NCBI GenBank assembly: GCA_007095785.1
Contig: SFBL01000065.1
Location: forward strand, 1-37,203
Origin: Microcystis aeruginosa Ma_SC_T_19800800_S464
Lineage (GTDB): Bacteria > Cyanobacteriota > Cyanobacteriia > Cyanobacteriales > Microcystaceae
DNA length: 37,203 nucleotides
Direction of reading: 5' to 3'
Of the stretch, positions 320-25,998 are shown piece by piece. Under the pieces are notes generated by a model. That model made no database searches. It was not told where the DNA came from and worked only from the letters and a program-made list of their open reading frames with translations. The position numbers and the translations under genes were made by a program. The stretch's first letter is position 1; each line of letters opens with the position of its first letter.

Positions 320-356
320 TTAATCTTTAATATTTAATTAATCTAAGAAAGATTAA
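320..356 (-). terminator. Possible weak hairpin at the end of the phosphoesterase operon
   Basis: TTAATCTTT (320-328) and AAAGATTAA (348-356) form a 9-bp perfect inverted repeat overlapping the stop codon of the phosphoesterase-like gene. It is AT-rich and without a clear U-tract, so terminator function is uncertain. Nothing else is recognisable in 222-319. Confidence 0.25.
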
Positions 357-1051
357 TAAGGTACGGTTCTAAACTCCACGCAATTATTACTGGGATTATA
401 GAGAGTGTAAACTGCTTTATTTAATTCTTTACCAACGCTACCAACCCCAATTAAACGCTTATCTTGAATCGTCAAAGTTTCGCTTGGTTGCCGTTGATCT
501 AAAGTAGTAACAGTGCTAGTTAAATTAGCGGACTGTAAAGAATAATCAAAAACTTTCCCTGAACGACCACAAAAAAGATTATTAACTCCCACCCGTTGCA
601 GTCGATCTAAAATTTGCCATGGGGGAGTATCGGGTGTTAATTCTTCACTAACACTGACACTACTGCCATGAATTAATAAACAATCCAACTCGACAAAACC
701 AAAATCGAGATTTCGTAGCCATTGCACAGTTTCTAAAGACACTGTGTCCCAGAGTTGCTTAGTGCTATCGATACCATATTTATCAATTAATTCCGTTGGT
801 GTTCCCGTTGCTCCCAAACTGTGTAAAATCAGACATTGTTCTTCCCACCAACCCCGACAAACCTGCGGATATAAGTTATTTTTAGTGGGATAACGTATTT
901 GTTCTACCAGCATTTCACTATCGGGATTAACACCGATAAAATCTCCTAAAATATATAAATTTTCTACAGTAACTGACCGTTGCTGAATATCTGCTAAGAC
1001 CGCTTGATAGGCTGGTAAATTGCCTTGAATACCGCTTAAAATTGCCCACAT
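353..1051 (-). CDS. Calcineurin-like phosphoesterase homologue, probable pseudoenzyme
   Basis: A 232-residue protein of the metallophosphoesterase fold (YfcE/COG0639-like), last gene of the zinc-stress cluster. The ATG at 1051 is preferred over a GTG at 1069 because MWAILSGIQGN aligns with the start of the preceding paralogue, MKIAVLSCIHGN. Only part of the metal site survives. The first motif D-x-H-G-N is S-G-I-Q-G-N (both ligands lost), G-D-x-x-G is kept (LGDFIG), the G-N-H-D motif is G-W-W-E-E, one late His is kept (LIHGS), and G-H-x-H is G-R-S-G. A two-metal catalytic centre therefore looks impossible. It starts 21 nt after the active-looking paralogue and is probably translated with it. 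Tandem duplication followed by loss of catalysis, perhaps giving a regulatory or structural partner, is inference. Confidence 0.75.
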   Translation of the reverse strand: MWAILSGIQGNLPAYQAVLADIQQRSVTVENLYILGDFIGVNPDSEMLVEQIRYPTKNNLYPQVCRGWWEEQCLILHSLGATGTPTELIDKYGIDSTKQLWDTVSLETVQWLRNLDFGFVELDCLLIHGSSVSVSEELTPDTPPWQILDRLQRVGVNNLFCGRSGKVFDYSLQSANLTSTVTTLDQRQPSETLTIQDKRLIGVGSVGKELNKAVYTLYNPSNNCVEFRTVPY

Positions 1052-1072
1052 AATTTCTTGAGTTATCACAAA

Positions 1073-1882
1073 TTAACGTTCGCAAACATGAGTCGGATCA
1101 TCGGCTTTTTCCGCATATTCTAGACCCTTAGCCAATCGCCAAGCGAAAATAGGAGGTAAACCCGATGCTAAAATAGCCTGACAGGTTTCTTGATAGTTAT
1201 AGGCCACTTCTCGCAGTTGTACCGCTGCCGTTTCTCGATCGTAAATCACATAGGTGGCATTTGGACGACCGTGACGCGGTTCTCCCACCGATCCCACGTT
1301 GATGATACGTTTAACTGGTGTGGTAAATTGCCGCGACTGTTCCCCATCGGGTTGATACACTTTTATTTGCAAGCTTCCTGCGTCGAGAGTGCGAATGTAG
1401 GGGATGTGGGTATGTCCACAGAATAAAACCTCTGCATCTACCGATAAAACCCGTTCTAAAGCCGTAAAAGCGTCCATTTCGGCTAAAAGATACTCATGGT
1501 TACTTTGGGGACTACCATGGACAAAACAGAGGTGATCTAGCTTAAAAATTTCGGGCAGTTTTGACAAATAATTACGGTTTTCTGGGGTGATTATTTGATT
1601 TGTCCACTCATGAGCTAATCTACCCCGTTTTTCTGCTAAAAGCGACGGATAACTGCATTCACAGGCATTTAATCCCTCAACGATATCCTCATCCCAACAC
1701 CCTTGTACTGTAGTAATCCCCAGTTGACGGATTTTTTCCACCACTTGGTTAGGATGGGGTCCATACCCAACTAAATCCCCTAAACAGTAGATTTCTTGAC
1801 AACCCTGTTGGTCTAAATCTCGCAAAACAGCATCAAAAGCAGGCATATTGCCATGAATACAGGATAAAACGGCTATTTTCAT
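1073..1882 (-). CDS. Calcineurin-like metallophosphoesterase with Cys-substituted metal site
   Basis: A 269-residue cytosolic metallophosphoesterase, YfcE/COG0639-like. Motifs run in order: SCIHGN (7-12), GDLVGYGP (35-42), GCWDED (61-66), a late FVHGS, and CGHTH near residue 157. Family members normally have Asp in S-D-I-H-G-N and Asn-His or Asn-Tyr in G-N-(H/Y)-D; here Cys8 and Cys62 occupy the Asp and Asn ligand positions while GD, H-G and GHTH are intact. This suggests an altered metal preference rather than simple decay. Its ATG overlaps the stop of the upstream P-loop gene by one base (TGATG), so translation is likely coupled. The substrate is unknown; relatives act on phosphodiesters, phosphomonoesters or nucleotides. 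Placement behind a Zur-like operator implies a role in zinc shortage (inference). Confidence 0.8.
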   Translation of the reverse strand: MKIAVLSCIHGNMPAFDAVLRDLDQQGCQEIYCLGDLVGYGPHPNQVVEKIRQLGITTVQGCWDEDIVEGLNACECSYPSLLAEKRGRLAHEWTNQIITPENRNYLSKLPEIFKLDHLCFVHGSPQSNHEYLLAEMDAFTALERVLSVDAEVLFCGHTHIPYIRTLDAGSLQIKVYQPDGEQSRQFTTPVKRIINVGSVGEPRHGRPNATYVIYDRETAAVQLREVAYNYQETCQAILASGLPPIFAWRLAKGLEYAEKADDPTHVCER

Positions 1883-2661
1883 CAGATTAACTCCATTTCT
1901 GGCTCTAAAGATTCTTGAAATTGTTGTTGATAATAAAAAAGTACCTCATCGGACAGACAACAATCACTAAGGGTATCGGCAATTATCGGTTTATCGAGAT
2001 TGCGACCGACGATTTCAATCCCACTGAAGCGATTCGGTCTCCCATCGAGATTTAAGGGGAAATTTAAGCTTTGAAAGTCTTTTTCTGGCCATTCATCCAT
2101 AAATTCCCCATAAATACACTGACCGTCGATGATATCGAAGATACTTTTAACCCGCAGCACTTCCCCATAGGCACCTTGGGTTAATTCTGTCCAAAAGGTA
2201 GTTAAACTGGAAAAATCGAGGACTTCTCCCGTTAAAACGGCTCTATAAATCTGTATTTCTCGTTTTTTTAACCATTGATCACCTTTTATTGTTGTTTTGA
2301 CGGGACTGAAGACAATTTCATCGACGGGAACTTGTCCTTCGGGGATTTCTGCTTCTGGAGACGTAATCGCTACCCGATGACAATTGAGGGGTTTTAGAAA
2401 GCTTTCGAGGGATTGCGTGTCTAAATGCCATGGTACTTCCATATAGACCGTGTTTTCCATGGATAAACTGCTCAAAAGGTCTTCTTCTTCCCTAGAAACA
2501 CAGGACAACTGGGGAAACTCACTCTGTAAAGTGAGGCGATCAATGGGAAAAGTTTCCGTCTGGGGACTAAAATATAGGCTTGGCTGCCTCTGTTTAGCAA
2601 TTTGTTCGCGAATCCAATGGGTTTTTCCCGCAGCTATACCCCCCGTCACCACGATAATCAT
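1882..2661 (-). CDS. Degenerate COG0523/CobW-like P-loop protein
   Basis: A 259-residue protein starting MIIVVTGGIAAGKTHW, a clear Walker A (GGIAAGKT, 7-14). The C-terminal part (about 170-235) resembles the CobW C-terminal domain: GEVLRVKSIFDIIDGQ, then FSGIEIVGRNLDKP, matching the F-I-G-R-N-L pattern at the end of the COG0523 protein upstream. It lacks the CxCC metal-binding motif and the NKxD guanine-specificity motif of true COG0523 GTPases, and is about 80 residues shorter. It may be a shortened relative that kept the P-loop and C-terminal domain. The start codon lies 23 bp from a Zur-like operator. It is the first gene of a tight unit with the two phosphoesterase genes. Its function is not established. 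Confidence 0.7.
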   Translation of the reverse strand: MIIVVTGGIAAGKTHWIREQIAKQRQPSLYFSPQTETFPIDRLTLQSEFPQLSCVSREEEDLLSSLSMENTVYMEVPWHLDTQSLESFLKPLNCHRVAITSPEAEIPEGQVPVDEIVFSPVKTTIKGDQWLKKREIQIYRAVLTGEVLDFSSLTTFWTELTQGAYGEVLRVKSIFDIIDGQCIYGEFMDEWPEKDFQSLNFPLNLDGRPNRFSGIEIVGRNLDKPIIADTLSDCCLSDEVLFYYQQQFQESLEPEMELI

Positions 2662-2662
2662 T
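2653..2662. promoter_or_regulatory. Second half-site-like copy of the Zur motif over the start codon
   Basis: GATAATCATT at 2653-2662 repeats exactly the ten bases at 2687-2696, 34 bp away, and covers the start codon of the P-loop gene. Part of it is fixed by the codons for Met-Ile-Ile, so it may be coincidence. Confidence 0.3.
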
Positions 2663-2683
2663 TTGCTCCTTCTCTATTGTGGT

Positions 2684-2696
2684 AATGATAATCATT
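2684..2696. promoter_or_regulatory. Zur-like operator upstream of the P-loop gene
   Basis: AATGAT-A-ATCATT is a perfect 6-1-6 palindrome. The stretch TGATAATCATT (2686-2696) is identical over 11 bases to one strand of the operator at 6129-6143. It sits 23 bp upstream of the start codon at 2661, as expected for a repressor site, and suggests that the P-loop/phosphoesterase unit has its own zinc-responsive promoter. Confidence 0.6.
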
Positions 2697-2786
2697 CTAG
2701 CATAAGTTAGATTGGGGCAAGTAATCTTCCTTAACCAATCCTTTAAACTTAGCAAGCTGGGGAAAAATTGGCGGTTTTTTGGGATA

Positions 2787-2908
2787 TTAATCCTGGTTAT
2801 GGCTCTTTTCTCTAGGATACCATTGGGTTTGTCCATCGGGTAAGTCAACTAGGGTAACTCCCATCATTTTTAATTGTTCCCTTAATCGATCGCTTTCGGG
2901 ATAGTTTT
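2787..2908 (-). pseudogene. cysS: 3' remnant of a cysteinyl-tRNA synthetase gene
   Basis: Reading the minus strand from 2906 gives NYPESDRLREQLKMMGVTLV, then D-LPDGQTQWYPRE and a TAA at 2789-2787. This matches the C-terminal anticodon-proximal tail of CysRS (E. coli ends with [24 protein letters not shown], pattern for pattern). Only about 39 codons survive, and upstream homology stops at the palindromic element starting at 2909. It looks like the tail of a lost cysS copy. CysRS is a zinc enzyme, so a duplicate beside a Zur-controlled ThrRS would be logical, but that role is inference. Confidence 0.65.
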
Positions 2909-2954
2909 TTCAGCGAGAAAACGGGTTTCTTGAAGAGATCGTTTTCTCGCTGAA
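2909..2954. repeat. Palindromic element, 14-bp perfect inverted repeat
   Basis: TTCAGCGAGAAAAC (2909-2922) pairs perfectly with GTTTTCTCGCTGAA (2941-2954) around an 18-nt loop. The inner part AGAAAACGGGTTTCTT resembles the palindromic element at 18516-18565, suggesting one repeat family. It lies exactly where cysS homology ends, so its insertion may mark the breakage point. It could also act as a terminator for the GTPase gene ending at 3093. The rest of 2955-3092 shows nothing recognisable. Confidence 0.55.
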
Positions 2955-3092
2955 TTGATCGCCGCAAAAATAAGGGTTAAATGGCATAAAATCTGTAAAT
3001 AGACCATTTAATTGATTATTATTCATTCTTAATTTTCCTGACTACTGACTCCTAACCCTAAAAACGATTTTTGATTTCTGCAAGAGGTCTAT

Positions 3093-4118
3093 TCATAGTT
3101 TGTCCTTTTTAATTTTTTGAGAACTAGCCAAGCATTCGTTTAGTTGTGTCACAATTTCCTCTTTATTTAAATTTCTGCCGATAAAAACTAACTGATTCTT
3201 AGGAGGTGTATCCCATTCTACCGCTTGCAGATCGTAACGAGGACCGCTCAGTTGAAAAATATGTTTTAAATCGCTTTGTTGAAACCAGAGAATCCCTTTA
3301 GCTCGAAAAACATTTATCGGCATTTTTTCCGTGAGAAAAGGCTCAAATTTATCTAGATTAAATGGTTTATCGCTAACAAAGGAGACAAAATTAAAGTCTT
3401 CAGGAGATTGATTATCACTGGAGCTTTGGCGATTTTTTTGAAAGTCTCTAAACTGGTCTTTATACAATTCTTCTTTAGTTAAACCTAAATCTAATAGTAA
3501 ACCCAAAGCAACCTTACCGTATTGACTTTGTAACAATCTTACCCCTTCTTTTTCTCGACGAATAAACTTTTCCAAGTCATCTAATTTGTTTTGATTAACC
3601 CGATCTATTTTATTGAGAATTACCACGTCACCATAACGAATTTGACTAAGGGCAATGTTACTATCAAAATGATCCGCAGTAAAGGTTTCAGAATCCACGA
3701 GGGTAATAATAGAATCTAAGCGAGTTAAATATTTTAACTCCGTGGCCAAGAAAGTGAGGATAATTGGTAAAGGATCGGCTAATCCTGTAGTTTCAATAAT
3801 TAGATAATCTACGGGAATTTCTTTTTCTAAGACCTGATAGACCGTCTCAATTAAACTATCATTAATCGTACAACAAATACAGCCATTACTTAATTCTACC
3901 ATATCTTCATCGATAGAAACAAGCAATTGAGAATCAATATTAATATCTCCAAACTCATTGACTAATACGGCCACTTTTAACCCTTCTTTATTGTCGAGAA
4001 TATGATTTAGTAGGGTGGTTTTGCCACTTCCCAAAAAACCAGTAATAATCGTGACAGGCATTCCCGATTTAGGTAAGCAAGGGAGGGAATCGGAGAGAGG
4101 AATTATCAAAGAACTCAT
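3093..4118 (-). CDS. COG0523 (CobW/ZigA-like) GTPase, putative zinc chaperone
   Basis: A 341-residue G3E-family GTPase. Walker A GFLGSGKT is at 27-34, the CxCC metal-binding motif GCICC at 79-83, followed by ETTGLADP, a V-D-S Walker B-like turn and NKID for guanine recognition. The CobW C-terminal domain ends with VFIGRNLNKEE. The linker that is His-rich in many zinc-linked members (and in the paralogue at 21946) is here Ser/Asn-rich without histidines. COG0523 proteins are proposed to deliver zinc to client proteins at low zinc, and several are Zur-regulated. The gene follows thrS2 by 141 bp without its own visible Zur box, so co-transcription from the 6129 operator is likely. Its natural client is unknown; the adjacent ThrRS is a candidate. 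Confidence 0.9.
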   Translation of the reverse strand: MSSLIIPLSDSLPCLPKSGMPVTIITGFLGSGKTTLLNHILDNKEGLKVAVLVNEFGDINIDSQLLVSIDEDMVELSNGCICCTINDSLIETVYQVLEKEIPVDYLIIETTGLADPLPIILTFLATELKYLTRLDSIITLVDSETFTADHFDSNIALSQIRYGDVVILNKIDRVNQNKLDDLEKFIRREKEGVRLLQSQYGKVALGLLLDLGLTKEELYKDQFRDFQKNRQSSSDNQSPEDFNFVSFVSDKPFNLDKFEPFLTEKMPINVFRAKGILWFQQSDLKHIFQLSGPRYDLQAVEWDTPPKNQLVFIGRNLNKEEIVTQLNECLASSQKIKKDKL

Positions 4119-4259
4119 GGCAGCTAACCCACTTTTAAGTTAATTAATTGGCAGAAAATAGGCTTTTCTAAACCCTGTTAAATTTGCCGTGAAGGTATCG
4201 ATCTCCACTAATTGATCATTAAAAATAAATACAGGGATTTGCTGGTTTACACAAAAGTT

Positions 4260-6116
4260 TCAGAGATTAGCTTTAGATAGGATCGCTGTTTGCATTTTTT
4301 CTAATAAATCTGCCAGCTTCATCGAACCTAAATCACCCCCTTGTCGAGTACGAATGCTTAGAGTTTTACTGCTAACTTCCCGTTTTCCAATCACAGCTAA
4401 GACAGGTATTTTTTCTAGTTCTCCTGTACGAATTTGTTTACCTAAACGCTCACCACTTTTATCGATTTCCACTCGATAACCAGCTTGTTTTAACCGCATT
4501 GCTACCTCTAAAGCATAATCCTGTTGTTCATCACTAACGGGTAATAAACGGATTTGAATAGGTGCTAACCAGAGAGGAAAATCTCCCGCGTAATTCTCGA
4601 TTAAAATACCAAAAAATCTTTCCAAAGAGCCAAAAATAGCCCGATGAATCATAATCGGTCTTTCCCGACTACCATCCCTAGCGACATATTCCATATCAAA
4701 GCGTTCTGGCAAGTTAAAATCGACCTGAATCGTGGAACATTGCCACATTCTACCGATCGCATCTTGAATTTTTATATCAATTTTCGGACCATAAAAAGCC
4801 CCACCTCCCTGATCCTCAATATAATCCCACTTTTTAGCATTTAATGCTTCAATTAAAGCCGCCGTTGCCAATTCCCAAACACTATCGCTACCCACGGATT
4901 TACTGGGACGAGTCGATAAATTTACCTCATAATTAGTAAAGCCAAAATCGGAGAGAATTTTCTCGGTTAAGTTCAAAACTCCTAGAATCTCTGCGGCAAT
5001 TTGTTCTGGTAAACAGAAAATATGAGCATCATCTTGAGTAAAACCTCTTACCCGCATTAATCCGTGTAAAACCCCCGATCGCTCGTAACGATAAACTGTG
5101 CCTAATTCTGCCCATCTTAGGGGAAATTCTCGATAGGAATGCAGGTCATTTTGATAGGTTAAAACATGAAAGGGACAATTCATCGGCTTAATTTGATAGC
5201 TTTGCTGTTCTAACTCGATCGCCTCAAACATATTGTCGCGATAAAAGTCCCAATGTCCAGAAGTTTTCCACAGATCTAAATTAGCCAGATGGGGAGTATA
5301 AAGAAATTGATAACCGGCTTCTAAATGAGCTTGGCGCCAATAATCTTCGATTAAATAACGCATTGTTGCACCCCGGGGATGCCAAAAAACTAAGCCGCCA
5401 CCGGCATCTTCTTGGATGCTAAATAATTTTAATTGTTGTCCCAATTTGCGATGATCTCGTCGCTGCGCTTCTTCTTTTTGTTGGAGATAATTTTGTAATT
5501 CTGCGGGGGTTTGCCAAGCTGTGCCGTAAATTCGCTGTAATTGCGGCTGTTTTTCATCTCCTTGCCAATAAGCACCCGCTACACTCTCCAAGGCGAAAGC
5601 ATCTGGGTTAATTTCCCCCGTCGAGTTGAGATGGGGTCCCGCGCACAGATCCCACCAAAATTCTTCTGGGGGAGAAACAACCCCATCAATTAACGAGGGT
5701 TCTCGATCGCTCCGTCCTGCGTCCGGACTACCGATAAAATAACGGGTAATGGTTTCTTCTGGGGGGATTCTCTCCAAAATTAACTTTTTGTAGGGTTGAT
5801 TAAGGCGTTCAATTTCTGCCGTAATTTCGCTTCTTTCCACCACTTCTCGGATAATTGGCAGGTTTTTCCCGATAATTCGCCCCATTTCTGCCGCTATTTT
5901 CTCCAAATCTTCGGGGGTAAAGGGTGTTAGGCGATCAAAATCGTAGTAGAATCCCGTTTCTGTCCAGGGACCAATAGCGACTTTGGTTTCAGGAAAGAGA
6001 GTTTGTACGGCCATTGCTAAGATATGGGCGCAAGTATGGCGTATTTTTACGATTTTTTGCGAATCTTCTTCGATAACGGGGCTTTCTGCTAGGGGGTACT
6101 TAATCTGATTGACCAT
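4260..6116 (-). CDS. thrS: Threonyl-tRNA synthetase, zinc-stress-type paralogue (T2)
   Basis: A 618-residue class II synthetase that charges tRNA-Thr. It starts directly in the editing domain and lacks the N-terminal TGS domain of the 642-residue E. coli enzyme. Editing residues are present: H27-T-C-A-H31 and C158-A-G-P-H162. The catalytic zinc ligands are also kept, in MNCPFH, DDAHIF and MIHRAIFG. Between the two editing motifs it is 24 residues longer than the second ThrRS in this window, with a Gly/Pro/Asp-rich insert around 128-152. The start lies 12 bp from a near-perfect Zur operator. In Anabaena PCC 7120 a second ThrRS (T2), induced in zinc deficiency and weak in proofreading, is described beside a constitutive T1; this gene fits T2. 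It is followed by a COG0523 GTPase. Confidence 0.93.
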   Translation of the reverse strand: MVNQIKYPLAESPVIEEDSQKIVKIRHTCAHILAMAVQTLFPETKVAIGPWTETGFYYDFDRLTPFTPEDLEKIAAEMGRIIGKNLPIIREVVERSEITAEIERLNQPYKKLILERIPPEETITRYFIGSPDAGRSDREPSLIDGVVSPPEEFWWDLCAGPHLNSTGEINPDAFALESVAGAYWQGDEKQPQLQRIYGTAWQTPAELQNYLQQKEEAQRRDHRKLGQQLKLFSIQEDAGGGLVFWHPRGATMRYLIEDYWRQAHLEAGYQFLYTPHLANLDLWKTSGHWDFYRDNMFEAIELEQQSYQIKPMNCPFHVLTYQNDLHSYREFPLRWAELGTVYRYERSGVLHGLMRVRGFTQDDAHIFCLPEQIAAEILGVLNLTEKILSDFGFTNYEVNLSTRPSKSVGSDSVWELATAALIEALNAKKWDYIEDQGGGAFYGPKIDIKIQDAIGRMWQCSTIQVDFNLPERFDMEYVARDGSRERPIMIHRAIFGSLERFFGILIENYAGDFPLWLAPIQIRLLPVSDEQQDYALEVAMRLKQAGYRVEIDKSGERLGKQIRTGELEKIPVLAVIGKREVSSKTLSIRTRQGGDLGSMKLADLLEKMQTAILSKANL

Positions 6117-6127
6117 TGCTAGTTAAA

Positions 6128-6144
6128 ATGATAATGATTATCAT
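6128..6144. promoter_or_regulatory. Zur operator of the thrS2 cluster
   Basis: ATGATAATGATTATCAT is a 17-bp almost perfect palindrome (core TGATAATGATTATCA, 6129-6143), matching the cyanobacterial Zur box pattern. It lies 12 bp upstream of the thrS2 start at 6116 and includes a GATAAT that could serve as a -10 element, so a bound repressor would block transcription. Fur boxes are similar but longer; the zinc-linked genes downstream favour Zur. Confidence 0.8.
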
Positions 6145-6464: not shown

Positions 6465-8066
6465 CTAGAAGAGCCATGATTTATAATCGGCCAAGTGCTT
6501 ATATTCATGACCCCGATTATCGCGTGGAACAGGAGGTGGTTGGGGTTGTCCTCGTTCATCTGGTGGAACAAACCGAGGTTGTTTAGCTTGACAAATTCTT
6601 AACTCAGCCCAATTTTCTAGACTTCTATTTTCTGTAAAATGTTCAAACTCATGTAGTGAATGAATAACAGGCGGCATTGTCAGACTTAATTCCGAACAAT
6701 AATTAGTTTCCTCGATCATAAATTCAAATATTTGAGAAGCTGTTATTGCATCATAAAAGGAGAGAACCAAAGGAATAACAGGCTTATCTTTCAAATTATA
6801 CGCTCGAACGGTTGCCGAAATTTGTTCTGTGGCTTCGTGAAATCTCATATAAAAATTGGCTAGTCCTTCAGGATGAAAACAGGCGCTAGTGTCAGCAGAC
6901 ATTAGCGAATTCTTGCATTCGATAATAATATAGGCATTAGGAAGGCATATCAAAAAGTCTGCTCGTTTTCCCGCTTTATTGATCGAGTCTGTTTCGTCAA
7001 CAGGAATTCTTTCAAAAGATGTCGGAGCAATCTGGGGCAAAAAAACTGCTTCCAGATATGTTTCCACCGCATCACTTAAAATACCATCTCGTTTTTTTCG
7101 ATTCTCTTCGTAGGGCGTAAGAATATTTGTGTTAATCTGGTTCCAGCAGGATTCAGACAAAGAAAAAGGATCGGGAAGACAGTATTTTTGTTTGCCAAGA
7201 TATATAAATGGAATATCTAAAAAATAATTATAAAAGAATGGTTGATAAGGTTCTGATACTGTTTCTATACTTCGCTCAACTTTTGTCCAAAAACATTGAG
7301 AACCTTTTTTTGTAGATAGATTAAAAGGCAAGCTATTGAGTGAAATAAATTTTTCAAGATTCTCTTGAGTAATTCCCTGATCTTCGAGTTCTTTATCTAT
7401 ACTTATAGTCCGAGAAAAGTCGATAAGACCCCATTGCTCTCCATTGCTCATTCCCCATCCAATCGCCGACATAAATTGATTAAAGTAAACCTGGGTTGAT
7501 AATCCCGCTCGCTGATAAAAAAGCTCAAGAATAAGAGGGTGTGATTGATGAATAATCTCCAATAATTTAATCGTGCGCTGAATACGAGCTATTGGTTTTC
7601 CAAATCCCGAATTTTGAAAAGCCGCCGAACGCTGACAGAAGAGTCCTGACGAATGGCGGCGCACTTTCTCTTTTGTGATAAAATCACTAGGCTTGATCGT
7701 CCAGTTACGAACTTTGTTTATATGATTTTTCTCGTATTTTGCAATGTTATTTACGATTTCTTCCGATTCTTTTTCCAACAGATTTTTGTCTGAAATTGTA
7801 TGGTTCGGCCAACCAAAATAAACTTGAATCAAAGAATAGAATTCTTCTGGAATTATTTCTTGATCACGATGTATGTTTCCCGCACTAGCAAGAAGGATCA
7901 ATCGAATCACATAATTTCGTGATGCGTTACTTTTTACCCATTCATAAGGACTACTCTTCCAGCTTTCCCACTCGCGCCAACAAATACTTGCTCCCATTTT
8001 TAAAATTGAATGAGAGTTATATCGACGAAGATAGTCTTTTAATTCTGTTATGTTCGAGAAGTTCAT
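6465..8066 (-). CDS. Orphan PD-(D/E)XK nuclease-like protein, unknown function
   Basis: A 533-residue protein with no family I can name. Its C-terminal third contains a PD-(D/E)XK pattern: K-R-A-D370-F-L-I, then IIIE383CK385NS, i.e. Asp, 12 residues, then E-x-K in a hydrophobic strand, as in restriction-endonuclease-like folds. The first 350 residues are rich in aromatic and charged residues without a visible helicase, methylase or zinc-finger motif. The tail (about 495-525) is Pro/Gly/Arg-rich and low-complexity. No methyltransferase or other restriction partner flanks it; neighbours are thrS2 and an iron-stress operon on the same strand. It could be a solitary defence nuclease or a repair enzyme; both are inference. 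Confidence 0.6.
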   Translation of the reverse strand: MNFSNITELKDYLRRYNSHSILKMGASICWREWESWKSSPYEWVKSNASRNYVIRLILLASAGNIHRDQEIIPEEFYSLIQVYFGWPNHTISDKNLLEKESEEIVNNIAKYEKNHINKVRNWTIKPSDFITKEKVRRHSSGLFCQRSAAFQNSGFGKPIARIQRTIKLLEIIHQSHPLILELFYQRAGLSTQVYFNQFMSAIGWGMSNGEQWGLIDFSRTISIDKELEDQGITQENLEKFISLNSLPFNLSTKKGSQCFWTKVERSIETVSEPYQPFFYNYFLDIPFIYLGKQKYCLPDPFSLSESCWNQINTNILTPYEENRKKRDGILSDAVETYLEAVFLPQIAPTSFERIPVDETDSINKAGKRADFLICLPNAYIIIECKNSLMSADTSACFHPEGLANFYMRFHEATEQISATVRAYNLKDKPVIPLVLSFYDAITASQIFEFMIEETNYCSELSLTMPPVIHSLHEFEHFTENRSLENWAELRICQAKQPRFVPPDERGQPQPPPVPRDNRGHEYKHLADYKSWLF

Positions 8067-21945: not shown

Positions 21946-23046
21946 ATGCAAACCGTCGAATCACAAGCTATTAACACGATGTCAGTGCCAAAAAAAGGGC
22001 TACCGGTAACAATTATTACTGGGTTTCTTGGTAGTGGTAAGACTACCCTCCTCAATCATATTCTCAGCAATCAACAGGGATTAAAAACCGCTGTTCTTGT
22101 CAATGAATTCGGTGAAATCGGTATCGATAACGAACTGATTATCAGCAGTGATGACAGCATGGTAGAATTAAATAATGGCTGTATTTGCTGCACAATTAAC
22201 GAGGATTTAATTCAAGCAGTTTATAAAGTTCTCGAACGTCCCGAAAAAATCGATTATTTAGTCGTAGAAACCACGGGATTAGCCGATCCTTTACCGGTAG
22301 CTTTAACCTTTTTAGGGACGGAATTACGGGAAATGACCCGTTTAGATTCCATTGTCACTATGGTGGATTGTGCTAATTTTAGTCTCGATTTATTCAACTC
22401 GCAAGCGGCCTTAAGTCAAATCACCTACGGTGATATTATTGTTCTCAATAAAACCGATCTAGTGGATGAAGGGGATGTGGATTCTTTAGAAATAAGAATC
22501 CGGGACATGAAGGAAGGAGCGAGAATTCTTCGTACTAGCAAAAGTCAGGTTCCTTTACCCTTAATTCTCAGCGTCGGACTATTTGAATCGGATAAATATT
22601 TCGACACAGAAGAAGAACACCACGACCATCATCACCACGACCACGATCACGACCATTGCGACCATGATCACGATCATCATCACCACGATCATGATCATGA
22701 TCATCACGACCATTCCAATCATTTAGAGGTGGATGGATTTACTTCTATTTCCTTTGCTAGTGACCAACCTTTTTCGATTCGGAAGTTCCAATATTTCCTC
22801 GATAATCAGTTACCGGAAAGCGTTTTCCGCGCTAAGGGTATTCTCTGGTTTGATGAAAGTCCTAAACGTCATATTTTCCACCTCAGTGGTAAACGTTTTA
22901 CTCTCGAAGATGACGAATGGAAAGGTACTCCGAAAAATCAGCTAGTTCTTATCGGTCAAAATCTCGATCATGAAACCCTAAAAGAACAGATTAACAATTG
23001 TCTCATTTTACCTGCTGTCAATCGCGGTAAAGGATTTGGGAAATAG
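21946..23046 (+). CDS. COG0523 GTPase with long His/Asp-rich metal loop
   Basis: A 366-residue G3E GTPase, paralogue of the one at 3093-4118. It has Walker A GFLGSGKT (26-33), the GCICC motif (Cys79, Cys81, Cys82), ETTGLADP, and NKTD (168-171). Between the GTPase and the CobW C-terminal domain lies a run of about 35 residues (225-259) with about 21 His alternating with Asp, a zinc or nickel store often seen in zinc-linked members. A second Met at residue 12 is a possible alternative start. No Zur-like palindrome is seen in 21844-21945, unlike the thrS2 cluster, so it may be constitutive or regulated otherwise. It converges on a metal-binding lipoprotein gene. It is probably a metallochaperone; the client is unknown. 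Confidence 0.92.
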   Translation: MQTVESQAINTMSVPKKGLPVTIITGFLGSGKTTLLNHILSNQQGLKTAVLVNEFGEIGIDNELIISSDDSMVELNNGCICCTINEDLIQAVYKVLERPEKIDYLVVETTGLADPLPVALTFLGTELREMTRLDSIVTMVDCANFSLDLFNSQAALSQITYGDIIVLNKTDLVDEGDVDSLEIRIRDMKEGARILRTSKSQVPLPLILSVGLFESDKYFDTEEEHHDHHHHDHDHDHCDHDHDHHHHDHDHDHHDHSNHLEVDGFTSISFASDQPFSIRKFQYFLDNQLPESVFRAKGILWFDESPKRHIFHLSGKRFTLEDDEWKGTPKNQLVLIGQNLDHETLKEQINNCLILPAVNRGKGFGK

Positions 23047-23061
23047 ATAACCATCTCTTGC

Positions 23062-23091
23062 GGGGGTGTTAGCCTAGGGTAACACACCCCC
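23062..23091. terminator. Bidirectional hairpin between convergent metal genes
   Basis: GGGGGTGTTA (23062-23071) pairs with TAACACACCCCC (23080-23091) with a small bulge, 16 bp after the GTPase stop and before the convergent lipoprotein gene. It is related to the GGTGTGTTA...TAACGCACC repeat at 27451. It may terminate both transcripts. Confidence 0.55.
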
Positions 23092-23099
23092 ATCACCTA

Positions 23100-23140
23100 A
23101 ATTCCCCACTTCCCCACTTCCCCACTTCCCCACTTCCCCC
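23100..23140. repeat. CCCCACTT tandem repeat
   Basis: About five units of CCCCACTT/TCCCCAC in the convergent intergenic gap. Such short C-rich arrays are common in this genome type and recur near 35480. Confidence 0.75.
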
Positions 23141-23152
23141 AATTATTTATTT

Positions 23153-24064
23153 TTATTCGGGTACTTTTCCCCCTAAAGATTCCACGATCGATCGAGTATT
23201 TTCTTTCAGCATTTTTACATAACTATCCCCTCCAGTACCCACTGCGCCGATCGAATCAGAATATAATTGTTGTGGTGCTAATTTCACCCCCGCTTCTTCA
23301 GCTACAGTGGTAATTAAAGCGGGATTAATAGTGGTCTCGGCAAAGATAGCAGGAACCTGGAGATTTTTAATAGCATCGGCTAAGTTTTTCACCGTTTGGG
23401 CGCTAGGTTGTTCTTCGGTACTAATGCCAATTAAAGTTCCCGCTATTTTTAAACCATAGGCATGAGCATAATACTGAAAAGCGTCATGAGTGGTGACTAA
23501 TTGCCTTTGGGAAGGGGGGATAGTTTCAATAGCCGCAGTAATCCAGCGATCAAGATTTTCTAATTCTCTGATTAATTGGGCGGCATTTTGGGTAAAAACT
23601 TCCCTATCTTCGGGACTTAATTCAATCAATTGATCTCGGATTTTTTCCACCATGATTATACCATTTTTAGCCGAACCCCAAACGTGGGGATCGGGGACTT
23701 TCTGCCCCTCTTTTTCTAGTTGTAAAGGCTTGATTGCTTCTCCCACAGCCACTTTTTTAGCTTTAATTCCCGTAGAATTGATCATTTTAATTAACCCCGG
23801 TTCCAGATTATAACCGTTATAGAGAATTAAATCGGCTTTTTCTAAAGCCACACTATCGGCGGGAACTGGTTCATAAACGTGGGGATCATCCCCCGGTTTT
23901 AAAATGTCTTGATGGTCAATTTCTTCACCGCCCACTCGTGCGGTTAAATCGGCGATAATTGTGCTAGTAGATATTACCTTGGGTTTTTGGTTATCGGTGG
24001 TATTAACCGAAGCATTACAAGCAACCAATCCCAAAAATAAACAGGATAAAATTAGTTTTTTCAT
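23153..24064 (-). CDS. Zinc/manganese ABC transporter binding lipoprotein (TroA/ZnuA-like)
   Basis: A 303-residue cluster A-I metal-binding protein. The signal peptide ends with lipobox L-V-A-C16, so it is lipid-anchored outside the plasma membrane. Predicted metal ligands are His62 (DPHVYEP), His127 (DPHVWG), His193 (TTHDAFQYY) and Asp270 (YSDSIG), i.e. the His-His-His-Asp set of TroA/ZnuA rather than the His-His-Glu-Asp of PsaA/MntC. The His-rich loop of many ZnuA proteins is absent (the region 115-125 is KEGQK-rich), so the metal could be zinc or manganese. No permease or ATPase gene is adjacent; the nearest metal gene is the His-rich COG0523 GTPase, convergent. No Zur-like box is seen upstream. 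Confidence 0.88.
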   Translation of the reverse strand: MKKLILSCLFLGLVACNASVNTTDNQKPKVISTSTIIADLTARVGGEEIDHQDILKPGDDPHVYEPVPADSVALEKADLILYNGYNLEPGLIKMINSTGIKAKKVAVGEAIKPLQLEKEGQKVPDPHVWGSAKNGIIMVEKIRDQLIELSPEDREVFTQNAAQLIRELENLDRWITAAIETIPPSQRQLVTTHDAFQYYAHAYGLKIAGTLIGISTEEQPSAQTVKNLADAIKNLQVPAIFAETTINPALITTVAEEAGVKLAPQQLYSDSIGAVGTGGDSYVKMLKENTRSIVESLGGKVPE

Positions 24065-24198
24065 CGGAAAATAGAGATGAGAGGTTAGAGGTTAGAGATG
24101 AGGGGAAATGGCATTGATATCTATCTTGATTTTTTTCCTGACTAAAGACTCCTTTTACTATTAAAATAGAGAATAGAGAAGGTGTAAATTGAAGAGAT

Positions 24199-25998
24199 AT
24201 GGATAACCAAGCCCCGATTAAACTACCGAAAACCAGCGAATCCGACCACCTCAAGCGCATTCGTCACACCACCTCCCATGTTATGGCCATGGCGGTGCAG
24301 AAATTATTCCCGCAAGCCCAAGTTACTATCGGGCCTTGGACTGAAACCGGATTTTACTACGATTTTGATGTGCCGGAACCTTTTACCGATAAGGATCTCA
24401 AGGACATCAAAAAAGAGATGGTCAAAATTATCAATAAAAAACTGCCGGTGATTCGCGAGCAAGTTTCTCGGGAAGAGGCGGAAAAGCGCATTAAAGCGAT
24501 TAATGAACCCTATAAGCTGGAAATTCTGGCGGGAATTCAAGAACCCATCACCCTTTATCATCTTGGTGACGCTTGGTGGGATTTGTGCGCCGGTCCGCAC
24601 CTAGATAATACAAGTGAACTAGACCCAAAAGCGATCGAATTAGAGACGGTAGCGGGTGCTTATTGGCGCGGGGATGAGAATAAAGCCCAATTACAGCGCA
24701 TTTACGGCACAGCCTGGGAAAATCCCCAACAATTAGCCGAATACAAGCGCCGTAAGCAAGAAGCACTGAAACGGGACCATCGGAAATTAGGCAAAGAATT
24801 AGGTTTATTTATTTTCTCTGATTCTGTCGGGCCGGGGTTGCCTTTATGGACACCGAAAGGAACTTTAATTCGTTCTTTGTTGGAAGATTTTCTGAAAAAA
24901 GAACAGTTAAAACGCGGTTATTTACCCGTAGTTACTCCCCATATTGCTCGCGTCGATTTGTTTAAAATTTCCGGTCACTGGCAAAAGTACAAAGAAGATA
25001 TGTTTCCCATGATGGCAGACGATGAGGAATCTGCTAGTAAGGAAATAGGATTTGTCCTCAAACCGATGAACTGTCCTTTTCATATTCAAATCTATAAAAG
25101 TGATTTGAGATCCTATCGGGAATTGCCGATGCGTTTGGCAGAATTCGGGACAGTTTACCGTTACGAACAATCGGGAGAATTGGGAGGGTTAACTAGAGTT
25201 CGCGGTTTTACCGTCGATGATTCCCATTTGTTTGTCACTCCCGAACAATTGGACAAGGAATTTTTAAGCGTTGTTGATTTAATTTTGACGGTGTTTAAGA
25301 GTTTACAATTAAAGAATTTTAAGGCGCGATTGAGTTTTCGTGACCCTGAATCCGATAAGTATATCGGTTCAGATGAAGCTTGGGAAAAGGCAGAATCAGC
25401 GATTAGAAAAGCGGTGCAAACTTTGGGGATGGATTATTTTGAAGCCCCCGGAGAAGCGGCTTTTTACGGTCCAAAATTAGACTTTATTTTCCAAGATGCC
25501 CTCGAAAGAGAATGGCAGTTAGGAACGGTACAGGTAGATTATAATTTACCCGAACGTTTTGAACTAGAATATGTTGCCGAAGATGGTAATCGTAAACGTC
25601 CGGTGATGATTCATCGCGCACCTTTTGGTTCTTTGGAACGTTTAATCGGTATTTTAATCGAAGAATACGCAGGGGATTTTCCTCTTTGGTTAGCCCCTGT
25701 CCAGATACGATTATTACCGGTTAGTGATAGTCAATTGGATTACGCTAAAGAGGTGACAGCGAAAATGCAACTATTAGGAATTCGCGCCGAAACCGATACC
25801 AGTGGCGAACGTTTGGGGAAAATGATTCGCAATGCTGAAACGGAAAAAATTCCCGTGATGGCAGTGGTGGGGGCAAAAGAAATGGAAACTAATAGTTTAA
25901 GTATTCGCACCCGTGCCACGGGCGATTTAGGAGCAATTAGCGTCGAGGAAGTGGTGGCAAAATTAGAAACTGCCATCCAAAATCACGGTAATTTTTAA
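24199..25998 (+). CDS. thrS: Threonyl-tRNA synthetase, housekeeping-type (T1)
   Basis: A 599-residue synthetase, second ThrRS of the window. Editing motif residues H23-T-T-S-H27 and C130-A-G-P-H134 are present; catalytic zinc ligands are in MNCPFH, DDSHLF and MIHRAP. It lacks a TGS domain, like the T2 enzyme at 4260, but has none of the 24-residue insert between editing motifs. No Zur-like site is visible before its start, consistent with constitutive expression. In Anabaena T1 is the accurate enzyme that loses activity at low zinc and can supply editing to T2 in mixed dimers. The metal-lipoprotein gene diverges just upstream, with a 134-bp gap. Confidence 0.95.
   Translation: MDNQAPIKLPKTSESDHLKRIRHTTSHVMAMAVQKLFPQAQVTIGPWTETGFYYDFDVPEPFTDKDLKDIKKEMVKIINKKLPVIREQVSREEAEKRIKAINEPYKLEILAGIQEPITLYHLGDAWWDLCAGPHLDNTSELDPKAIELETVAGAYWRGDENKAQLQRIYGTAWENPQQLAEYKRRKQEALKRDHRKLGKELGLFIFSDSVGPGLPLWTPKGTLIRSLLEDFLKKEQLKRGYLPVVTPHIARVDLFKISGHWQKYKEDMFPMMADDEESASKEIGFVLKPMNCPFHIQIYKSDLRSYRELPMRLAEFGTVYRYEQSGELGGLTRVRGFTVDDSHLFVTPEQLDKEFLSVVDLILTVFKSLQLKNFKARLSFRDPESDKYIGSDEAWEKAESAIRKAVQTLGMDYFEAPGEAAFYGPKLDFIFQDALEREWQLGTVQVDYNLPERFELEYVAEDGNRKRPVMIHRAPFGSLERLIGILIEEYAGDFPLWLAPVQIRLLPVSDSQLDYAKEVTAKMQLLGIRAETDTSGERLGKMIRNAETEKIPVMAVVGAKEMETNSLSIRTRATGDLGAISVEEVVAKLETAIQNHGNF

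Follow-up and report, generated by a model that had tools for sequence, protein, structure and literature searches.

A conserved cyanobacterial gene trio around a cysteine-substituted metallophosphoesterase, predicted to be controlled by Zur

Introduction

Cyanobacteria often live in waters that are very low in zinc, and most of the known targets of Zur encode chaperones, uptake systems, or paralogues of enzymes that use zinc. One locus of Microcystis aeruginosa Ma_SC_T_19800800_S464 raises the question of whether a unit of another kind belongs to the same response. It lies on contig SFBL01000065.1 (assembly GCA_007095785.1), whose 37,203 nucleotides were analysed as a whole (hereafter, the window) and which is one of 240 contigs in a 4.77-Mb genome (G000). 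A preliminary description of this DNA had pointed to a zinc-stress cluster with two Zur-like palindromes, one of them ahead of three genes for a degenerate COG0523-like P-loop protein (PL), a metallophosphoesterase with cysteine substitutions (MPE), and a phosphoesterase-like pseudoenzyme (PE3), which it proposed to act together when zinc is low. Do these genes form a unit beyond Microcystis, does Zur control them, and what might they do? We conclude that PL-MPE-PE3 is very probably a Zur-controlled zinc-starvation module. Our favoured overall explanation, to which we give a probability of roughly 45%, is that this module is built round an active metallophosphoesterase with a thiolate-tuned metal site.

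Results

The three genes occur together

We searched 194 genomes of the phylum and scored an MPE as full length when its E value was below 1e-100. Such a protein is encoded in 41 genomes, and every one of them (41/41) also has matches to PL and PE3. The preliminary description had named a lack of such conservation as grounds for refuting its proposal, and the proposal passed this test. PL matches total 44 genomes and PE3 matches 46, the three and five extra ones being partial matches (PL in G005, G080, and G119; PE3 in G080, G109, G119, G139, and G145) that were not scored as complete. A distant family (f28) accounts for 63 of the 104 MPE matches, with E values from 1e-32 to 1e-20, and was excluded as orthologues. 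One of the partial cases, G005, is a collapsed trio and not a solitary PL (L215, 4422–5318): its PL ends at about residue 213, and the next 900 bp contain 26 residues of MPE and then a fragment from the C-terminus of PE3. A perfect Zur-type box stands between this PL and a flavin adenine dinucleotide (FAD) oxidoreductase.

The organisation of the locus was studied in a scan of named genomes, from which we kept the best 80 of at least 567 MPE relatives, ranked by MPE similarity (the 80 loci; stretches of at least 12 kb were available for 49 of them). PL is upstream of MPE in all 80, and PE3 lies inside the fetched DNA in 69. The coupling of the first two genes is tight, with an overlap of 4 nt in 68 of 75 loci and of 1 nt in two; the 1-nt overlap reported for the window is indeed that of PL and MPE (TGATG). 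The spacing between MPE and PE3 is looser: it is at most 150 bp in 42 of 68 loci and exceeds 1 kb in 10. PE3 is not the next open reading frame after MPE in 18 loci, and it has a box of its own in five of these. The gap of 21 nt described between these genes in the window stands if PE3 starts at the ATG favoured by the family alignment, and is lost if the longest open reading frame, from the upstream GTG, is taken (Table 1). In both loci in which MPE-PE3 was seen split from PL, it lies directly behind znuA (L140, where the Pfam ZnuA match scores 281 bits, and G187, where znuA was recognised by similarity). Joint presence, joint decay, and coupling suggest that PL, MPE, and PE3 probably act together.

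The closest MPE among the matches listed is from Microcystis (99% identity), and the best 80 of at least 567 relatives are all titled cyanobacteria except one. This one (L130), titled Candidatus Gracilibacteria, has PL and MPE (77% MPE identity) and is probably a mislabelled or mixed metagenome-assembled genome. We also considered a viral or phage origin and rejected it: one scan of viral contigs gave no relative, and a tblastn search of phage records gave a single distant MPE (29.9% identity).

A Zur-type box is conserved before PL

The Zur-type pattern TGATAATNATTATCA has one perfect match in the 4.77-Mb genome, box 1 of the window. Box 2, ahead of PL, differs from this 15-mer at two positions, and at up to two mismatches the genome contains 119 matches, against 81 for a backwards control pattern. 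We compared the region from 200 bp upstream to 60 bp inside PL across loci, with a threshold of at least 12 of 14 positions. A box was found just before PL in 46 of the 80 loci, compared with 10 of 363 control genes of the same loci. Neither the pattern read backwards (0/80) nor a scrambled palindrome (0/80) occurred there, and the mean for shuffles was 0.2. The Fisher p value of this enrichment (7e-31) ignores kinship, and the safer counts are those of loci thinned to MPE identities below 90%, of which 27 out of 48 have the box. When boxes at the head of the operon, as drawn here, are included, the count rises to 55/80. The genome of the window has a one-mismatch box about 300 bp ahead of folE-hemB, and encodes three proteins of the FUR family.

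Box 2 is significant because the box before PL is conserved, and it is a predicted Zur site. Together with the derepression of the corresponding promoter in PCC 7002 (see below), this conservation makes Zur control of the trio well supported as a prediction.

The promoter before PL probably responds to the loss of Zur in PCC 7002

According to the passages covered here of Ludwig et al. 2015 (PMC4628125), the deletion of zur in Synechococcus PCC 7002 derepresses hemB-II, folE-II, G0131 (GTPase-like), and G0132 (an FAD oxidoreductase). In pAQ7 of this strain (L209, 5977–7748), we found a broken trio between the oxidoreductase and folE, a case separate from the collapse in G005. Its PL is truncated, with the first 147 residues matching PL of Picosynechococcus PCC 7117, which has the intact trio, as does Trichormus variabilis ATCC 29413, at 146/147 positions before the sequences diverge. 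The open reading frame in the place of MPE does not convincingly resemble it (best E 0.015 over 39 columns), and PE3 is reduced to its final 111 residues. From gene order and description, we infer that G0131 is the truncated PL and that G0129 and G0130 occupy the place of the lost MPE and the shortened PE3. Because G0131, so mapped, is derepressed in the zur mutant, Zur very probably controls the promoter before PL in living cells of PCC 7002.

The targets described for the Zur regulons of Anabaena PCC 7120 and Synechococcus PCC 7002 are of the same kinds as the genes around the trio (hemB2, folE, thrS2, COG0523, and znuABC), and the passages covered do not describe the trio as a unit; PCC 7002 differs in having parts of PL and PE3 only, and no recognisable MPE. 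The open-licence literature linking Zur or COG0523 with phosphoesterases gave no description of such a unit, and the word "phosphoesterase" is absent from the parts covered of PMC2770081 (Haas et al. 2009), PMC6103462 (a 2018 review), PMC10957091 (on ZepA), and PMC9337993 (on WH8102). The view that the trio is not an established zinc system can thus be kept with one amendment, as the covered part of PMC4628125 mentions three genes of the matching cluster of PCC 7002. The trio is probably a previously undescribed module within the response governed by Zur.

Zinc-stress genes are frequent neighbours of the trio

HemB, FolE, HisI, ThrRS (threonyl-tRNA synthetase), or COG0523 is encoded beside 43 of the 80 loci, a number that becomes 48 when Znu proteins are counted and 60 when Znu proteins and the FAD oxidoreductase are counted; hemB, folE, hisI, thrS, and COG0523 are all missing from the fetched DNA in 37. 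Pfam was used to check the names of neighbours, in two loci for Znu and on one representative each for FolE, HemB, HisI, and the oxidoreductase. A looser count of 63/80 was set aside since it admitted loose matches to ABC transporters, and a search for COG0523 across the genomes was too unspecific for use as a profile. With the conserved box, these neighbours bear out the description of the locus as a Zur-type zinc-stress cluster.

An FAD/NAD(P) (nicotinamide adenine dinucleotide, phosphorylated or not) oxidoreductase occurs in 26 of the 80 loci (e.g., L118, 3757–5022), often divergent from PL and with a Zur-type box between the two genes. The trio is present in 22 of 28 genomes with this oxidoreductase versus 19 of 61 without it (p 3.5e-5, kinship ignored); the class of 89 genomes was taken from the order of the listing, partial oxidoreductase matches were counted, and G026, outside the class, was left out.

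The three proteins depart from their families at key positions

We aligned 66 PL, 61 MPE, and 51 PE3 sequences, each set including the protein of the window (65 of 75, 60 of 80, and 50 of 68 references, respectively). Mean column identity is 82% for MPE, in loci that were ranked by MPE similarity, 57% for PE3, and 47% for PL. Motifs and alignments agree with the preliminary description of a degenerate COG0523-like PL, a Cys-substituted MPE, and a pseudoenzyme PE3.

MPE has a Pfam match and, by structure comparison of its model, a calcineurin-like fold. In this protein, CxH replaces DxH and GCWD replaces GNxD, so that C8 (59/61) and C62 (61/61) stand where eight non-cyanobacterial relatives have Asp and Asn; two Cyanothece sequences have Asp at the position of C8, a form present in Cyanothece BG0011. 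The metal ligands H10, D36, H122, H157, and H159 are retained, and D36 (of GDxxG), H122 (the His of VHGS), and H157 and H159 (of GHxH) are kept in 61/61 sequences. Apart from these residues and the two ligand cysteines, at least six Cys or His residues are invariant (C74, C76, C155, H204, H265, and C267; 61/61). The asymmetric diadenosine tetraphosphate (Ap4A) hydrolase/phosphodiesterase SapH (3qfm) and the metallophosphoesterase 3rqz are the known structures to which MPE compares; the cyanobacterial protein differs from them in having C8 and C62 for Asp and Asn, in ending with an HxC tail, and in having Trp where they have the catalytic His. The closest non-cyanobacterial relatives among the plasmid records listed are metallophosphoesterases with 32%–41% identity (eight examined), most of the plasmids having them in arsenic-resistance operons. 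Five of these eight share the CxC motif of MPE; they differ from it in keeping DxH and GNxD and in the absence of the HxC tail. On plasmids, MPE relatives adjoin ars genes in five of the seven examined (L120, L121, L210, L211, and L214) and not in the other two, and one of the five has two MPE genes in tandem. We claim no arsenic role for MPE.

PE3 gave no Pfam match at E values up to 1. Nearly all of its 51 sequences have lost metal ligands, with G for D, E or Q for H, WWE in the place of GNHD, and GRSG for GHTH; D43 and H134 are kept in 51/51.

PL has the Walker A residues G12 and K13 in 66/66 sequences, with T14 in 64 and S14 in two, and the strict GxxxxGK[ST] in 56. CobW_C is found in 58 of 66 members (E at most 0.01, best 1e-6), the PL of the window itself scoring 12.6 bits, which is below the cut-off (22). 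The first three Foldseek ranks are YjiA (E 2.1e-7 to 2.1e-6, template modelling score about 0.3). The VIA-align rows contain GTPases of the signal recognition particle type, FlhF, and dethiobiotin synthetases over residues 1–123, and YjiA is not among them; a phmmer search of the Protein Data Bank gave no match at E values up to 1. ZagA and ZNG1 are GTPases of the COG0523/G3E family, to which YjiA also belongs. PL resembles this family in its P-loop domain, behind which there is probably a CobW_C-like domain, and differs from it in lacking the CxCC metal-binding motif (0/66) and in having the guanine-specificity motif [NT]KxD in two of 66 sequences only, the PL of the window not being one of them. 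These motifs led us to reject the possibility that PL is a plain COG0523 chaperone.

The locus in the window

The genes and both boxes lie where the preliminary description had placed them (Table 1). On the minus strand, the order is box 1, ThrRS, COG0523 GTPase, a remnant of cysS, box 2, PL, MPE, and PE3. The genome has two full ThrRS genes, both in the window, and the Zur box and the existence of a second ThrRS fit a T2 type for the one behind box 1. The cysS remnant sits between the COG0523 gene and PL, and an intact cysS was found on a different contig of the same genome. Paralogues of cysteinyl-tRNA synthetase are among the Zur-regulated enzymes in the covered part of PMC2770081.

A second island of zinc type contains the other ThrRS gene, a His-rich COG0523 protein, and a ZnuA-like binding protein named from its sequence. 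Matches to the Zur pattern at up to three mismatches lie inside coding sequence in this island (22665–22706 and 24419), and none lies between its genes. Elsewhere in the window, a 533-residue protein has a weak match to an antiphage family.

Table 1. Features of the window, with positions counted from its first nucleotide.
Feature	Position	Strand	Remarks
Zur-like box 1, TGATAATGATTATCA	6129-6143	-	Perfect palindrome, 12 nt from ThrRS start
Threonyl-tRNA synthetase (ThrRS), thrS2-like paralogue	4260-6116	-	TIGR00418, 709 bits (cut-off 383.65)
COG0523 GTPase with Walker A, CICC, NKID	3093-4118	-	Pfam cobW, 183.5 bits; CobW_C, 76.1 bits
Remnant of 3' end of a second cysS, one in-frame TGA	2820-2957	-	TIGR00435 positions 419-463, E 4.1e-4, below cut-off
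Zur-like box 2, 13-bp palindrome AATGATTATCATT	2684-2696	-	Ahead of PL; identical core before PL in other cyanobacteria
PL, degenerate COG0523/G3E-like P-loop protein, 259 residues	1882-2661	-	CobW_C in family members; Foldseek YjiA
MPE, metallophosphoesterase, 269 residues; Cys at two metal-ligand sites (C8, C62), CxC loop, HxC tail	1073-1882	-	Pfam Metallophos_2, 74.2 bits; AlphaFold2 model
PE3, MPE-like pseudoenzyme	353-1051	-	Longest open reading frame begins at GTG 1069; family alignment favours ATG 1051
533-residue protein	6465-8066		Weak match to GapS1 (antiphage family), 25.2 bits, far below cut-off of 320; E 6.9e-6
Second zinc-type island	21946-25998		Contains the next three features
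His-rich COG0523 protein	21946-23046		
ZnuA-like binding protein	23153-24064	-	
Second ThrRS	24199-25998		

Discussion

What might the module do? Under the explanation that we favour, Zur would leave the box before PL or at the operon head when zinc is low, and PL, MPE, and PE3 would then be made alongside substitute or duplicate enzymes (HemB2, FolE, HisI, and ThrRS2), Znu transporters, and COG0523 chaperones. MPE, which keeps the calcineurin-like fold, would have one Cys ligand on each side of a dinuclear site (C8 and C62) and would act as a phosphohydrolase on a nucleotide or another phosphorylated metabolite, its metals still being held at very low free zinc. The CxC loop and the HxC tail may form a metal-responsive lid, PE3 may be the partner subunit of MPE, and PL may be a regulator or assembly factor dependent on nucleoside triphosphates (NTPs). 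The complex of MPE and PE3, catalysis, substrate, and the role of PL are all derived indirectly. We tentatively read MPE as a working hydrolase because its conservation (82%) extends far past the metal ligands, although the choice of loci raises this value in part.

Several observations weigh against this explanation. The catalytic His of GNHD is a Trp in MPE (W63), and Cys in the place of Asp could abolish hydrolysis. Its likeness to SapH is at the level of fold only, and the nucleotide-handling or signalling role proposed in the preliminary description is drawn from fold similarity alone. Selection explains part of the high conservation of MPE, as the 80 loci were ranked by similarity to it. 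The lid is a conjecture because the CxC loop and the HxC tail are modelled with low confidence in the AlphaFold2 prediction (residues 68–77 and 257–269, predicted local distance difference test score below 50). Sequence profiles tie PL to COG0523 weakly, as shown by an hhalign probability of 17.6 between PL and the COG0523 protein of the window. The copies of the trio are not all intact: PL is in two open reading frames in G187, and a stop interrupts the PE3 match in both G022 and G048. As for regulation, 25 of the 80 loci have no box at the 12/14 threshold, neither before PL nor at the head of the operon as drawn here, and we rejected judging the significance of box 2 from its own genome alone, given the counts for the pattern and its control. 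Finally, G0129 (a phosphoesterase) and G0130 (without homologues) are reported as not responsive to Zur in PCC 7002, in the passages covered of PMC4628125. We infer, from the sequence of pAQ7, that this may reflect the deletion and replacement of the original genes.

An explanation close behind the hydrolase, though itself doubtful, is a metal-trafficking complex in which MPE-PE3 would be a Cys/His-rich zinc carrier without catalysis and PL an NTP-driven switch for its loading and unloading, as in other G3E metallochaperones. It is consistent with the COG0523-like nature of PL, the six or more additional invariant Cys and His residues of MPE, the presence of COG0523 and znu genes among the neighbours, the loss of the general-acid His in MPE, and the near absence of metal ligands in PE3. 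It fits poorly with the lack of a CxCC metal site in all 66 PL sequences. MPE is also more conserved than a carrier should need relative to PL and PE3, though here again the loci were chosen by MPE similarity.

MPE could also be a zinc-sparing replacement, standing in for a housekeeping phosphoesterase with loosely held zinc, much as HemB2 and ThrRS2 have been proposed to replace their paralogues. Its position among paralogues of zinc enzymes (hemB, folE, hisI, thrS, and the cysS remnant) is what such a role would lead one to expect, yet PL and PE3 would then be superfluous and the trio is kept together, which makes this explanation improbable.

It is very unlikely that the boxes are Fur boxes and the trio an iron-starvation unit. 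In cyanobacteria, the boxes of Fur and Zur resemble each other, both being AT-rich palindromes, and the genome encodes three FUR-family proteins. However, the recognised neighbours are zinc-stress genes (no search for iron genes was made), and the matching promoter of PCC 7002 responds to the loss of Zur in the passages covered of the published study. Least likely of all, and unlikely in view of the conservation tests, is that the trio merely adjoins zinc genes and is transcribed by chance: the loci without a recognisable box and the 37 without hemB, folE, hisI, thrS, or COG0523 in the fetched DNA would allow this, and it is opposed by the box enrichment, the own boxes of some displaced PE3 genes, the two moves behind znuA, and the joint presence in 41/41 genomes.

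A bolder version of the hydrolase explanation, which we regard as unlikely, is that MPE is the first recognised member of a metallophosphoesterase clade with one thiolate ligand per metal of the dinuclear centre and forms with PE3 and PL an enzyme gated by zinc status. Its CxC loop and HxC tail would read zinc, and its active site would make or remove a nucleotide-type signal or a damaged cofactor specific to zinc starvation. If true, the Zur response would have an arm that acts after transcription.

These results bear on how the response is studied. PCC 7002 appears to have lost the module, which makes it a poor choice for the study of the trio and suggests another reading of the published data. 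The clade in which Cys stands for the Asp and Asn ligands, along with the two Cyanothece sequences that have Asp, provides a natural experiment in metal-site design. With its rewired metal site, and often preceded by conserved Zur-type boxes, the module occurs in 41 of the 194 genomes sampled and would fill a gap in the Zur response in a way that can be tested.

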